A stretch of DNA of 34,365 nt from an uncultured Parvibacter sp. Lineage in GTDB: Bacteria > Actinomycetota > Coriobacteriia > Coriobacteriales > Eggerthellaceae. The translations under genes were made by a program, and so were the position numbers. The stretch is taken from the NCBI GenBank assembly GCA_947649875.1, contig CANSTH010000011.1, positions 1-34,365 of the forward strand, written 5' to 3'. Below the pieces are notes generated by a model. That model did no database searches. It was not told where the DNA came from and worked only from the letters and a program-made list of their open reading frames with translations. Shown one piece after another: positions 24,156 through 32,865 of this stretch. Within the stretch, counting starts at the first letter, position 1, and the number at the start of each line of letters is the position of its first letter.

Positions 24156-25556
24156 CTAGCTGGATGCCGAAGGGTAGGCCACTGCACCAGTGGCAATGCA
24201 GATGACGCACAGCAGCATAAACGCGCAACCGATGGCCACCAATATGACCCCCAGGATAAGGCCCCTCTTGAACGTTTGGCCCTTCATGAAGGGAATGTGG
24301 CGCCGTAGCCAACGCTTGTCCAGCAACGCGTAGGCAATGCCGGAGAAGCAGGGCCAGAAGAACCCAATGTACTCCATGAGCAGAAACCACAAGGGTAATT
24401 GCTGGTCGTTCTGATTGGGATTCACCACCGCTACCGTACTGGCCAGCATGAACAGCCCCCAGGTAAGCAGCACCAACACGTTCCACACCATGCCCACCAC
24501 GATAGATGCCCGGTAGGCAGTAGAAGGGGAAGCTGGCGCCTGGGAAGAAATGCCAACCGGAGAGGACGCATCTGCAGCATTTGGGCTGGTTGATGCCGCC
24601 GAACATGCCGTTCCCACCACAGGAGAGGCGAATGCGGCCAAAGGCGCCTCAGAACCGGACGCTCCAGACGGCGGAAAAGCGGCGGACGAAGGAGGAGCCA
24701 ACGGCACTCCGGCCGCTTGCCCCTGTCCGGCCTGGGCACGATGCGGCATCTCCGCCTGGGCAGCGGCCATAAACGCCGCTTTTAGCTCTTGCACCGACTG
24801 GAAACGGGACGCAGGATCGAACGCGCAGGCGCGGGCCAGCACACCGCGCACAAGCGGCGGAATCTCCGGATCGGGGAATCCAGCGCGCACCACCGCTGGC
24901 GACGGCTCCCGCTCGGTGAGCAGGAAGTACAGAATCATCCCCAGCGCATAGCCATCGCTGCGCACGTCAGTTTGGCCGTAGCCGAACTGCTCGGGCGGCG
25001 CATAGGAGCGAGTGCCGAAGTGAGTGGTATCGCTATCGGCGCCGTCCCGGTAAGGGCGGGCAATGCCGAAGTCCAGCACCGTCAGCTGCCCCTCTCCCAC
25101 CAGCACGTTATCGGGTTTCAGGTCGCGATGGATGAGCGGTGAGGGCGCAAGCGAATGCATCTCGGCAACGCCATCGCACAACAGCGGGAACCAGCGAAGC
25201 GCCAGCTTGAGCGAGGGGTCGCAGGCAAACACCTCGTCCCGCAGCGTGCGGCCGGCCACGAATTCCATCACCACTATCAGCTCGTCGTCGCGACGATGCA
25301 CGTCGTAGATACGCGGCAGATGTAAGAAGCGCCGCCCCGCCCGCTGGGCCTCTAGCAAGTGATAATAGCCCTTCCCCATTTCCGCATCGCAGTTGATGCG
25401 CTTGCGCACAAACGGCCCCAGCTGCGCGTCGTTGGCCCCCACAAAATAAACCACTTCGGTGGTCTCGTGGGGCGACTGCTTTAGCACCCGTTGCACGCGA
25501 TAGCAGTCATCGCGTGCAAGGGCATCCAAGTATGTGGCAAGGGGATCGTTTTCCAT
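24156..25556 (-). CDS. Membrane-anchored Ser/Thr protein kinase
   Basis: Starting at the ATG at 25556, the protein has 466 residues; earlier TTG or ATG codons are possible and no start has a strong ribosome site. A Hanks-type kinase domain spans about residues 15-285 with IHRDLKPDNVLV, LDFGIARPY, FGTRSYAPPEQFG and SDGYALGMILYFLLT all intact, so it should be active. The glycine-rich loop is not canonical. A Pro/Ala/Ser-rich linker (about 300-365) leads to three membrane helices at the C-terminus rather than PASTA sensor repeats. It probably phosphorylates cytoplasmic or membrane partners encoded nearby, such as the XRE-type proteins. Confidence 0.88.
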   Translation of the reverse strand: MENDPLATYLDALARDDCYRVQRVLKQSPHETTEVVYFVGANDAQLGPFVRKRINCDAEMGKGYYHLLEAQRAGRRFLHLPRIYDVHRRDDELIVVMEFVAGRTLRDEVFACDPSLKLALRWFPLLCDGVAEMHSLAPSPLIHRDLKPDNVLVGEGQLTVLDFGIARPYRDGADSDTTHFGTRSYAPPEQFGYGQTDVRSDGYALGMILYFLLTEREPSPAVVRAGFPDPEIPPLVRGVLARACAFDPASRFQSVQELKAAFMAAAQAEMPHRAQAGQGQAAGVPLAPPSSAAFPPSGASGSEAPLAAFASPVVGTACSAASTSPNAADASSPVGISSQAPASPSTAYRASIVVGMVWNVLVLLTWGLFMLASTVAVVNPNQNDQQLPLWFLLMEYIGFFWPCFSGIAYALLDKRWLRRHIPFMKGQTFKRGLILGVILVAIGCAFMLLCVICIATGAVAYPSASS

Positions 25557-25653
25557 GGAGCCCATCATACCAAAAGCGCAGGACAGGCGCGCCCATGCCT
25601 CATCGGACTTCTGCCGATTCCACCGGCGCTCGATGCGACGCAAATGATATCCG

Positions 25654-26518: not shown

Positions 26519-27238
26519 TTAGCTCAGCGAGAACGTCTTTTCTGCAAGCAGCTCATCGCTGAAACTGAACAGCTCTTCCACCTCAACGGTCACATCGCTG
26601 GTATCCGTCAGCTCGTAGGCCAGCGCGTAGGTAACAGAGGCGCCCGGCTTAATCTCGCTCATCGACTTGCTGCTTTCCGCGCCGTCCACGCCGATGGCGC
26701 CCTCCAGCTGCATGCCATTCTGGAATGCCTTGGCACTTACCGCCACCAAGGGGCTAACGGCTTCATCGGAGTTGTTGACGAAGGTATAAGACACCAGGAT
26801 AGCCGGGTTGCCCTGGTAGTCATCCACTGTACGGGTCTCGCCGATGGTCACCTGGTAGTCGGCCGCCTCGCCGCCGCTCTGGGCTGCTTCCGGCTGCTGG
26901 GCTTCTGACCCCTGAGTCCCTTGGGCCGACTGCTGTGCCGCCTGCCCCGAGTCACCCTGCCCCTTGCCAGCGGCATCGGAGGCAGCCCCCGCACTGCCGT
27001 ACATCACCGCAGTCACCAGCAGCGCGATGATGCCCAACACTAACCCGGCAATGGCAATGCCCTTGCCGCCTTTCGTGCCCTTCACCGTTTGCCACACGCC
27101 GATGCCGCCAAAGATGATGGCCAGCAGCACGAACGGGAACGACAGCAGGTTCAGCAGCGGCACGAACGAGCTGACCAGCGCAATGATGCCGCATACCAGG
27201 CCCGCCACTGCAAGACCGGAGGTTGATTTCTTCTCCAC
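26519..27238 (-). CDS. DUF4190/DUF5067-like membrane-anchored protein
   Basis: The 239-residue protein starts at a GTG after AAAGGAGAAGG. Two membrane helices at about residues 8-45 and 60-82 form the DUF4190-like part (GLAVAGLVCGIIAL and GIAIAGLVLGIIALL). A Gln/Ser/Gly-rich linker leads to an outer domain (about residues 125-239) with YQVTIGETRTVDDYQGNPAI and AFQNGMQLEGA, the pattern of DUF5067 extracellular domains. The function is unknown; such proteins are surface-exposed. It follows the kinase group but reads away from the 26098-26518 gap. Confidence 0.82.
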   Translation of the reverse strand: MEKKSTSGLAVAGLVCGIIALVSSFVPLLNLLSFPFVLLAIIFGGIGVWQTVKGTKGGKGIAIAGLVLGIIALLVTAVMYGSAGAASDAAGKGQGDSGQAAQQSAQGTQGSEAQQPEAAQSGGEAADYQVTIGETRTVDDYQGNPAILVSYTFVNNSDEAVSPLVAVSAKAFQNGMQLEGAIGVDGAESSKSMSEIKPGASVTYALAYELTDTSDVTVEVEELFSFSDELLAEKTFSLS

Positions 27239-28026: not shown

Positions 28027-28035
28027 GGGCACCTC

Positions 28036-30039
28036 CTAATACCTGCGAGCTTCCAAATGACGCTTGCGGCGATGGTTTACCAGCACCACCAGCACCAGCA
28101 GCAACGTGCCACTCAAAATGCCGAGGTTGATGGTGGTCTCGGCGTATACCGCCTGAATGCCCATCTCCTGGTAGAAGCCCTGTAGCAGCTCGATGAACAA
28201 CGGCTGCAGCTGCGCTACCGCCAGCAGAATGGCCACGAAGTTTATCACCATGCCGTTGCGGCTCTCGGTGATGGCCGCCCGCGATGCCACCACGTGCTCG
28301 AGGTATTCCTGCTGCTCGTTGTAGGCATCGTGCAGCTGTTGATTGCCGAAGGCCTCCCGCAGCTGCGCCGCCTCCAGCTGCGACGACAGGTACTTGAAGT
28401 TCTGCATCTCCCAAAACCGTACCGTGGCACCGTATTCGCGGTCGATGATCAGCTTCGTTTCCGGCGTGATGTTGGTGCTCTCCTCCAAAATGCCCGTCAC
28501 CCGCTTCGCCGCCTTCGCCAGCGCCGTGTTCTGGAACAGCGTGAGGATGACGATGAACAGATAGTCGGCGAAGCCATCGATGCGCTCCTCGATGGCGGGG
28601 GCGAACTTTTTGTCGATGTACACCACCGCCCGCTGCGAAAGGTACACCTCATAATGGGCGAATTGGGAGCGGTTGCTGCAGCTGCTCTGCTGGATGCACT
28701 CGCTTTCGATGCAATACTCACGCTCGAAGTTGTGATAGGCCTCCCCCACCAGCATATCCTGTAGTTCCCGCAGGTCAGCGGGCTTTCGGGAAAGGCACAG
28801 GGCGCATACGCCGTTGCCGCAGGTATGCAGCCCAAACTTCTCCAACAAGTACCCGGCGAAGAAGATGTCGGGCGGCAACGGCTTTTCCGCCGTATCGTCC
28901 ACCGGGCTGTTGCCTTTCGCGCCCTTCGAGCCGGCCGCCTTCCCCTCTTCCACCTTCTCCTGCCCGGCAGGGCGCATCATAGCCCTCCAGCCCAGGGCCG
29001 ACACGCATTTGCCCACGTCCGGCGGCATCGCTACCTTCAGGTAGTCGAACGACATCTGGTCTTCCATCTGGGTAAACGAGTAGGAGAAGCTGGGCAGCAG
29101 TGTGCACAGCACGTACATGTGGGTCTTCGGATGGGCTATCAGCACGCTGTGGCCGCGGGCATGGCCGATAACCGTTTCCTGGGCCGGATCTTCCAGCCCG
29201 CTGTACTCATCGGTGGTCTGCAGAAAGTCGAAGCTGCCGATGTAGGCCAGCTCCAGCTCTCCCACCACCTCGTTGCTGCACTCGTAGGCGATGCAGTCTT
29301 TCAAGTCATCGATAAGCTCTTCCGCCAGAGCACGGTCGGCAGCTGTGCCCGGCAATACGGCGTGGCCCGCTCGATAGTCTTCCAGAAAATTCTCCAACCG
29401 CAGGTTGTCGCGGTGGTCGGCCATGGGCATCAGCAGGTACATATCGCCCTTGTAGCCCCTCACCTCCAGCTGCCCTGCCAATAAGTGCCGCAGCAGCTTG
29501 CCGTCGCAGATGTACACGGTGTTGCCGTCCTCCAGTGTGCGCACCTCGCGGAACAGGTAGTTGACCAGCGCTTTCTTCCCGTGGGGCGAAACCGCCGTGC
29601 CCACGATGTCGGTTATGGGAAGGCCCTCGCTTTCCAGCCGGTTGAGGTACTCCACCCAGCCGTTGGACAGCAGCTTTATCACCTCGGTGCCCTGGTAATC
29701 GGGGTGCACCGCCAACGAGATGACGAACAAGTGGTTGGCATCGGTGCGATAGGGCGCCACCTCTTCCGGCAAAATGTCATCGTCACGGATTACCGGACAG
29801 CGCTCCAGATTGTCGAGATAGAGCCCCTCTTCGCAGGGAAAGAAGTTGATGTAGCCGGCCAGACGGCCGGTTTCATCGTCCTCCACGAACACGAAGGAGC
29901 GGCGGTTTTTCAGGTAGCGATCCACCGTTTTCTGCGGGTCGCCCCAATACTCCTCGCTATAGCAGGTCTGGTCTACCGGCACCAGCTTGTCCAGATAGGC
30001 CGCGTCCACCTCTTCCCCGAAGCGCACCGTAAAGCTCAT
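28036..30039 (-). CDS. GNAT-like / Cys-rich / two-TM fusion protein, unknown function
   Basis: The ATG at 30039, preceded by AGAGGAG, gives 667 residues; the track ORF extends it falsely. Residues 1-190 resemble a GNAT acetyltransferase: FVFVEDDETGRLAGYINFF and SLAVHPDYQGTEVIKLL (acetyl-CoA-binding motif A). The middle has no family I know, with two cysteine groups, HTCGNGVCALC and YCIESECIQQSSC, in about residues 425-490, which might bind a metal. From about 520 the sequence is helical and ends in two membrane helices (VINFVAILLAVAQL and GILSGTLLLVLVVLV) and a basic tail, a layout recalling CorA-like or YagE/Rmd1 membrane ends, though no GMN motif is present. It is followed by thiT. Confidence 0.65.
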   Translation of the reverse strand: MSFTVRFGEEVDAAYLDKLVPVDQTCYSEEYWGDPQKTVDRYLKNRRSFVFVEDDETGRLAGYINFFPCEEGLYLDNLERCPVIRDDDILPEEVAPYRTDANHLFVISLAVHPDYQGTEVIKLLSNGWVEYLNRLESEGLPITDIVGTAVSPHGKKALVNYLFREVRTLEDGNTVYICDGKLLRHLLAGQLEVRGYKGDMYLLMPMADHRDNLRLENFLEDYRAGHAVLPGTAADRALAEELIDDLKDCIAYECSNEVVGELELAYIGSFDFLQTTDEYSGLEDPAQETVIGHARGHSVLIAHPKTHMYVLCTLLPSFSYSFTQMEDQMSFDYLKVAMPPDVGKCVSALGWRAMMRPAGQEKVEEGKAAGSKGAKGNSPVDDTAEKPLPPDIFFAGYLLEKFGLHTCGNGVCALCLSRKPADLRELQDMLVGEAYHNFEREYCIESECIQQSSCSNRSQFAHYEVYLSQRAVVYIDKKFAPAIEERIDGFADYLFIVILTLFQNTALAKAAKRVTGILEESTNITPETKLIIDREYGATVRFWEMQNFKYLSSQLEAAQLREAFGNQQLHDAYNEQQEYLEHVVASRAAITESRNGMVINFVAILLAVAQLQPLFIELLQGFYQEMGIQAVYAETTINLGILSGTLLLVLVVLVNHRRKRHLEARRY

Positions 30040-31566: not shown

Positions 31567-32865
31567 CTACGCCAGCCGCAGCGCCAATTCCCGTACGGCA
31601 ATGCCTTCGGGATAATTCTCCAGCACGTTGAAGGAGATGGCCGGCAACGTGCCAGCGCCGGCCACCAGCGGCAGATGCCGGGGATGGAACTGCAGGCTCT
31701 CCTCATCGGGGTCTTCCTGGTATGGCACGCCGGCAGCTTTCAGCAGCTGCTTCGTAACCGCCATGTCGCCGTCGAACACTTTAGCGGTCTTCCAGAAAAA
31801 GTCCTCGTCGTCGAACAGCCATAGTGCGCCGTCCAGCCGCGCCTGGGTATTCTGCTGATGCATTTGCATGCGGTTTTTGTTCTCAAGCGAACAATAGTGG
31901 ATGCCCAGCTCAAGCCCTTGGTCCATGGCCCAATCCAGCAGCTGCAGGCAAGCCAGTTCACTACCGGCCACTGGCAGGCCGCCGGCATAGCTGTACTCAT
32001 AGGGAATGGCGAAGGGCGGGTTGGCAATCTGGTAACCACGGGCCGCAAAGGGCGCCCAATCGCCCATAGGGTAGCCGAATTCCAATAGGTTGATGCCGAA
32101 GGCGCCGATTGCGTTCATTCCCAACAGCAGCCCCTTCATCTCCTCCAGCATGTCGGGGGCCACGGGCATTTCCACCATCACATCGGGGATGAACTGCTTG
32201 GCCATGGCCAGACGGCGGATGGCTTCTTCGAAGGCGCCCGGCTCGTCCGGTTTCACCGAGAGCCGCAGTTCTTGCAGTCCGGCATCGGCCAGCTGTCTTG
32301 CCAGCCCCTCGTCCAGAAAATCGCCATCGGAGTAGAGGCGCAGGTGCGCCTGCGGGGCCGCCTCATGCACGTGAGCGAAGAAGGCCAGCGCCTCTTGGAC
32401 ATGCAGCAGCGGCTCGCCGCCGGTGAGGGCCACATGGGTCACCGGCACGGCGCCCTCCAGAAACTCGTCCACTTCTTGGCGCCAGTTCTTCTTCAGCAGC
32501 CGATCCGCCTCGTAGTTCACCTGGTTTTTGTTGAAGCAGAAATAGCAATCGCGGTTGCAGGCCAGCGAAAGGTAGAAGGTGCGGCTGCCGGGGTCGTCGG
32601 CGCAGGCCACGCAGGCACTGGAGAGCGGCCCGGTGGAGATGCTGGCTCCGCCGTTGCGGAAGCGGGCGCCCTGGGAGCGCAACTGCTTCAGCAGCGCTTG
32701 ACGCTGGGGCAAGTCGGCATCACGAGAAGCGAAGTCTACGCCGAAGCCAGCCAGACTGTCGATGTATTCCCGTTGGATGGCATCATATTCGGAAAGCCAC
32801 GCCGCCAACGTGGGGCGGACGGCTATGGCGTCTTGCACGGAAGAGCCGGCAGCGGTGTCTTGCAT
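31567..32865 (-). CDS. Radical SAM protein of unknown substrate
   Basis: The 432-residue protein has the radical SAM site CNRDCYFC (CxxxCxxC) near residue 110, followed by the ALTGGEPLLH SAM-binding motif. A CVAC pair lies about 20 residues before the site, and YCSLENKNR further on adds another cysteine, so an extra metal site is possible. I do not recognise a named subfamily. It is translated from an ATG directly abutting a 16-bp palindrome that contains its ribosome site. A joint pathway with the adjacent dehydrogenase is plausible but unproven. Confidence 0.85.
   Translation of the reverse strand: MQDTAAGSSVQDAIAVRPTLAAWLSEYDAIQREYIDSLAGFGVDFASRDADLPQRQALLKQLRSQGARFRNGGASISTGPLSSACVACADDPGSRTFYLSLACNRDCYFCFNKNQVNYEADRLLKKNWRQEVDEFLEGAVPVTHVALTGGEPLLHVQEALAFFAHVHEAAPQAHLRLYSDGDFLDEGLARQLADAGLQELRLSVKPDEPGAFEEAIRRLAMAKQFIPDVMVEMPVAPDMLEEMKGLLLGMNAIGAFGINLLEFGYPMGDWAPFAARGYQIANPPFAIPYEYSYAGGLPVAGSELACLQLLDWAMDQGLELGIHYCSLENKNRMQMHQQNTQARLDGALWLFDDEDFFWKTAKVFDGDMAVTKQLLKAAGVPYQEDPDEESLQFHPRHLPLVAGAGTLPAISFNVLENYPEGIAVRELALRLA

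Follow-up and report, generated by a model that had tools for sequence, protein, structure and literature searches.

In the S-component ThiT, the thiazole ring lies sandwiched between Trp34 and His125, the pyrimidine is bound by Glu84, and a further stacking interaction comes from Trp133 (PMC5037267). An AXXXA motif in helix 1 of S-components is needed for docking to the ECF transporter through EcfT, and the 5TMR histidine-kinase group contains receptors that have the S-component fold but lack this helix-1 motif (PMC11109136). The words acetyltransferase and GNAT are absent from that review of S-component-fold receptors (PMC11109136), and literature searches returned no description of a protein in which a GNAT domain is fused to a helical region and two transmembrane (TM) helices.

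Such a fusion is encoded in the 34,365-nucleotide stretch of DNA from an uncultured Parvibacter sp. that was analysed here (hereafter the window). The open reading frame runs on the minus strand from 30039 to 28036 (28036..30039), comprises 667 residues plus a stop codon, exactly the chain that the original prediction had placed there, and is preceded by an AGAGGAG ribosome site upstream of its ATG at 30039. Its product consists of an N-terminal GNAT domain, an unclassified middle part, helical regions and two TM helices, an architecture that is new to every library searched, in agreement with the earlier impression of an unfamiliar combination in one chain. Full-length homologs share 48–80% identity. 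In pairwise comparison with the congener Parvibacter caecicola, dN/dS was 0.19 overall and 0.09–0.23 per segment, and this value of about 0.2 indicates a genuine gene on which purifying selection acts.

Residues 1–189 (29473..30039, minus strand) form a GNAT domain according to Pfam, AlphaFold, Foldseek and alignment. They match PF00583 (Acetyltransf_1) with 26.7 bits (cut-off 20.7), and the same family is above its cut-off in nine of nine homologs. AlphaFold pLDDT values are about 80–90 across most of residues 1–150, and the N-terminal model is similar to GNATs in Foldseek (E value 1.9e-6; best TM-score by target 0.63–0.72), which confirms the acetyltransferase-like domain first proposed from the sequence. 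None of the NCBIfam GNAT subfamilies was matched by this domain. Invariant motifs include YWG, IRDDDI, NH and HPxYQ; the highly conserved acidic motifs IRDDDI, P-x-E and R-x-D-x-NH would suit a cationic substrate. The loop expected to bind the CoA pyrophosphate reads YQGTEVI and departs from the pattern Q/R-x-x-G-x-G/A: its last position is Ile, in place of Gly/Ala, in all ten sequences covering the region, and the fourth position is Glu in most fusions, with Gly only in two stand-alone copies and in one fusion genome (G042). Because this loop deviates from the GNAT consensus, catalysis by the fusion is uncertain.

The middle region (residues about 190–415; 28795..29472, minus strand) contains invariant H209, C254, H303, H307, H405 and C407, and a low-complexity insert at residues about 345–390 (window about 28870–29005) that is confined to proteins of the Parvibacter group. 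It is followed by a helical region (residues 416–594; 28258..28794, minus strand) with the conserved core LFQNTAL, RFWExQNFKYL and EYLEH, and by two TM helices with a basic C-terminal tail (residues about 595–667; 28039..28257, minus strand). The TM helices were assigned from hydropathy, which places hydrophobic segments at about 596–620 and 634–655, and from secondary structure in the models. Residues 190–594 match no Pfam family in eight homologs, and searches of the PDB by sequence and by profile, run with the complete fusion, its C-terminal two thirds or the helical end, produced only chance-level matches. AlphaFold models of the C-terminal two thirds were poor, and a Foldseek search with the C-terminal model, which returned nothing at E ≤ 0.001, is uninformative at a pLDDT of 50. 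The original prediction had also singled out two cysteine groups. These are not conserved across homologs, and their interpretation as a metal site was rejected: C443, C448 and C454 are not shared outside the genus, C412 and C415 are shared only in part, and only H405 and C407 are invariant in this region.

Invariant columns make up 43% of the GNAT domain, 39% of the helical part (seven fusion homologs) and 14–19% of the TM helices. The helical part thus comes close to the GNAT domain in conservation and the TM helices rank lowest, which suggests that function resides in the cytoplasmic part and that the helices may serve as an anchor or docking element. This gradient also bears on the CorA- or YagE-like membrane end that had been proposed at first, of which the two hydrophobic C-terminal segments were recovered and the family assignment was not. 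A soluble part followed by long helices and two C-terminal TM helices does resemble the outline of CorA and RMND1/YagE proteins, and the fusion could by this token be an ion channel or scaffold carrying a GNAT sensor rather than an enzyme. Against this stands the low conservation of the TM helices, which is below that of every other part compared. CorA (PF01544) was rejected as a relative: hhalign against a profile of eight Coriobacteriales CorA sequences gave a probability of 0.3%, the TM1–TM2 loop contains no GMN motif, and no Pfam CorA match was found in eight homologs. RMND1/YagE (DUF155, PF02582) likewise found no support in Pfam, with no match in eight homologs at E values up to 10, a search in which the HMMER filters drop very weak matches. 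We therefore regard the channel or scaffold interpretation as highly improbable.

Immediately downstream, on the same strand, lies a gene for a ThiT-like ECF S-component that matches PF09515 (27364..28026, minus strand; likely start ATG 28026). The stop codon of the fusion (TAG, 28036–28038) overlaps its ribosome site (AGGAGG, 28032–28037), as the original prediction had it, an overlap of the kind associated with co-translation, and in every lineage these two elements either overlap or directly adjoin each other. The ThiT-like gene follows the fusion directly, on the same strand, in 13 of 13 fusion genomes, in each of which it is the sole ThiT above the Pfam cut-off. Because the coupling is kept in all of these genomes, across five genera, it is not unique to the strain, the outcome that had been named in advance as speaking against a link between the two genes. 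In the opposite direction, a profile built from the paired subfamily recovered none of its members among 21 genomes that carry ThiT or other S-components and lack the fusion (one 36-bit match was a canonical ThiT). The two genomes whose GNAT homolog stands alone (G299 and G358) have no ThiT.

Outside the pair, gene neighbourhoods vary from genus to genus, which speaks against general synteny as the sole reason for the pairing, and no third partner gene is conserved across genera. A DNA-alkylation-repair gene and a gene of the methionine-aminopeptidase type, found close to the stand-alone GNAT in G358 and likewise close to some of the fusions, are only weak hints of synteny. Pairwise identities of the fusion and ThiT-like proteins correlate (r = 0.94), as would also be expected under plain vertical descent. 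Three other genes of the window were also observed. A radical SAM protein (31567–32865, minus strand) has no NCBIfam model above cut-off; its homolog in Parvibacter caecicola is directly upstream of the fusion, and in the window a dehydrogenase gene and an ArsC/Spx-like gene intervene. A membrane protein (26519–27238, minus strand; DUF4190-like and DUF5067 matches) is conserved close to the pair, but not outside the genus. Another gene (24156–25643, minus strand) encodes a Ser/Thr protein kinase domain, then a linker of low complexity and, at the C-terminus, membrane segments.

Protein and profile searches recovered relatives of the fusion only in Coriobacteriales, and none were found in a defence library, PHROGs, phages, plasmids or viral contigs. 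The C-terminal part is present in 13 of 399 genomes of the order, always behind a GNAT domain where the contig is complete; these genomes span five genera and two families. In the family of the window, the carriers are three species of its own genus (including Parvibacter caecicola), two species of a second genus (one of them Enterorhabdus sp. P55) and one species of a third. The other family contributes two genera, one of which holds six near-identical copies, so that 6 of the 13 genomes are closely related members of a single genus. The fusion proteins of that genus (g50; loci L023, L024, L025, L026, L027 and L040) are nearly identical and those flanks that were read are common to them, which suggests that these copies of the locus share a recent ancestor. 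The stand-alone GNAT homologs of G299 and G358 lack the C-terminal part; downstream of the one in G358 is a gene (L029:4683-5042, minus strand) for a protein of 120 residues that contains the cysteine run VGCGCGCGG and belongs to no Pfam family.

The ThiT-like protein matches PF09515 (Thia_YuaJ) over nearly its whole length (61.6 bits, cut-off 25.8, E value 1.3e-16), whereas its score against the NCBIfam ThiT equivalog TIGR02357 is 49.9, below the cut-off of 108.45. Among 191 sampled genomes of the order, the carriers of canonical ThiT belong mostly to three other families, and their ThiT proteins score far higher. Pocket residues were compared in eight paired members by alignment with PDB 4TKR and canonical Coriobacteriales ThiT. 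The equivalent of Glu84 is kept within an LEYP motif, and the positions of His125 and Trp133 are occupied by Tyr153 and Tyr161, invariant in all eight. The position of Asn151, which we take to be a ThiT pocket residue, is Asp in 8/8 members, Trp34 has no clear equivalent, and the family carries a conserved C-terminal DPT tail. The changed pocket could still be aromatic and cation-binding, so that thiamine or a related ring is a possible ligand.

No TPP riboswitch was found at the fusion/ThiT-like locus. Since the canonical Coriobacteriales ThiT loci sampled likewise lack one, this is not a strong contrast. The single TPP riboswitch of the window genome (L103, G000:C38:2605-2712) is located elsewhere, upstream of an ABC permease gene, and in two other genomes (G060 and G042) a TPP riboswitch adjoins a gene that by eye resembles thiC. 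The link with thiamine uptake suggested by the original prediction is borne out only in part: the coupling to a ThiT-like partner holds, but this partner is divergent in its pocket and the locus has no TPP riboswitch. Ordinary thiamine uptake would make the partner a working ThiT served by a shared ECF module, and the fusion a co-transcribed membrane acetyltransferase with an unrelated protein target. The Pfam score, the retained Glu84 equivalent and the presence of an ECF T component (in nine of nine genomes checked) are consistent with this explanation, but pairing that is exclusive in both directions among the genomes sampled, the Tyr and Asp substitutions in every member and the low equivalog score argue against it, and we consider it unlikely.

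A strict AXXXA motif is absent from helix 1 of the window ThiT-like protein in either alignment register, and is present in four of eight family members at the MAFFT register, the register of helix 1 being uncertain. The partner might accordingly be thought a receptor instead of an importer, forming a transceptor in which the fusion's membrane helices would relay a ligand signal to the GNAT domain, which would then modify a cytoplasmic target or work as an acyl-CoA-responsive switch. Receptors of the 5TMR group share the S-component fold and lack AXXXA (PMC11109136), and the altered pocket residues and the locus free of a TPP riboswitch point in the same direction. Yet half of the ThiT-like family keeps the motif in this uncertain register, ECF T components are encoded in the genomes, and none of the known receptor output domains occurs here, which leaves the transceptor improbable. 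Its more specific form, a split transceptor in which an importer-derived receptor of S-component fold is no longer served by ECF and signals in trans to a membrane-anchored GNAT protein, appears somewhat less likely still.

The best explanation, in our view, is a dedicated two-protein membrane module made up of an S-component-like ligand binder and an obligate GNAT-bearing partner, because neither gene was found without the other in the genomes sampled, and this pairing extends across five genera whose flanking genes differ. That the two proteins form one functional module is probable; the chances of the complete statement are about even. Conserved neighbour genes can persist without joint function, and this weighs against the module. 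The ThiT-like protein would capture, on the outer side, a small ligand that is probably cationic or of the aminopyrimidine type, and the fusion would be placed beside it, as obligate partner, by its two C-terminal TM helices and conserved helical region. The GNAT domain, putatively at the cytoplasmic face, may act on the ligand or in response to it. Its role may be modification of the imported ligand, receptor output on ligand binding, or that of a pseudo-enzyme; that it modifies the ligand itself seems doubtful.

The pair offers a concrete example, open to experiment, of a vitamin S-component to which a cytoplasmic partner appears to be dedicated, whereas such proteins as a rule are served by the ECF motor only. 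If the ThiT-like protein has changed its ligand or become a receptor, the locus would show the rewiring of an importer in gut Coriobacteriales; if the split transceptor were true, it would represent nutrient-controlled acylation at the bacterial membrane. The helical region and the two TM helices constitute an undescribed family that occurs only with this GNAT domain and this ThiT-like protein in the genomes searched, so the module should be easy to recognise elsewhere.

Compared with known systems, the fusion has the same Pfam match as the GNAT superfamily (PF00583; nearest solved folds CurA GNATL, 2ree, and Ard1, 5c88) and a confident fold in its N-terminal 185 residues, and differs from it by the deviant CoA loop and by the attachment to a membrane-anchored region without known relatives. 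It is like CorA (PF01544) in that long helices precede a pair of TM helices at the C-terminus, without a sequence-profile relation or the GMN motif. The partner shares the Pfam match and the Glu84 equivalent with ThiT/Thia_YuaJ ECF S-components (PF09515, TIGR02357; PDB 3RLB and 4TKR), and is distinguished by Tyr at the His125 and Trp133 positions, Asp at that of Asn151, the sub-cut-off equivalog score, the DPT tail and the lack of a TPP riboswitch. Receptors of the 5TMR/LytS type (PMC11109136) are a candidate only for how the module might work, with a membrane S-component fold, a cytoplasmic output and, as in the window protein, no AXXXA. Unlike in those receptors, the two parts are here encoded by separate genes and not fused, the partner belongs by sequence to the ThiT family and not to PF07694, and the output would be a GNAT domain instead of a kinase, cyclase or phosphatase.
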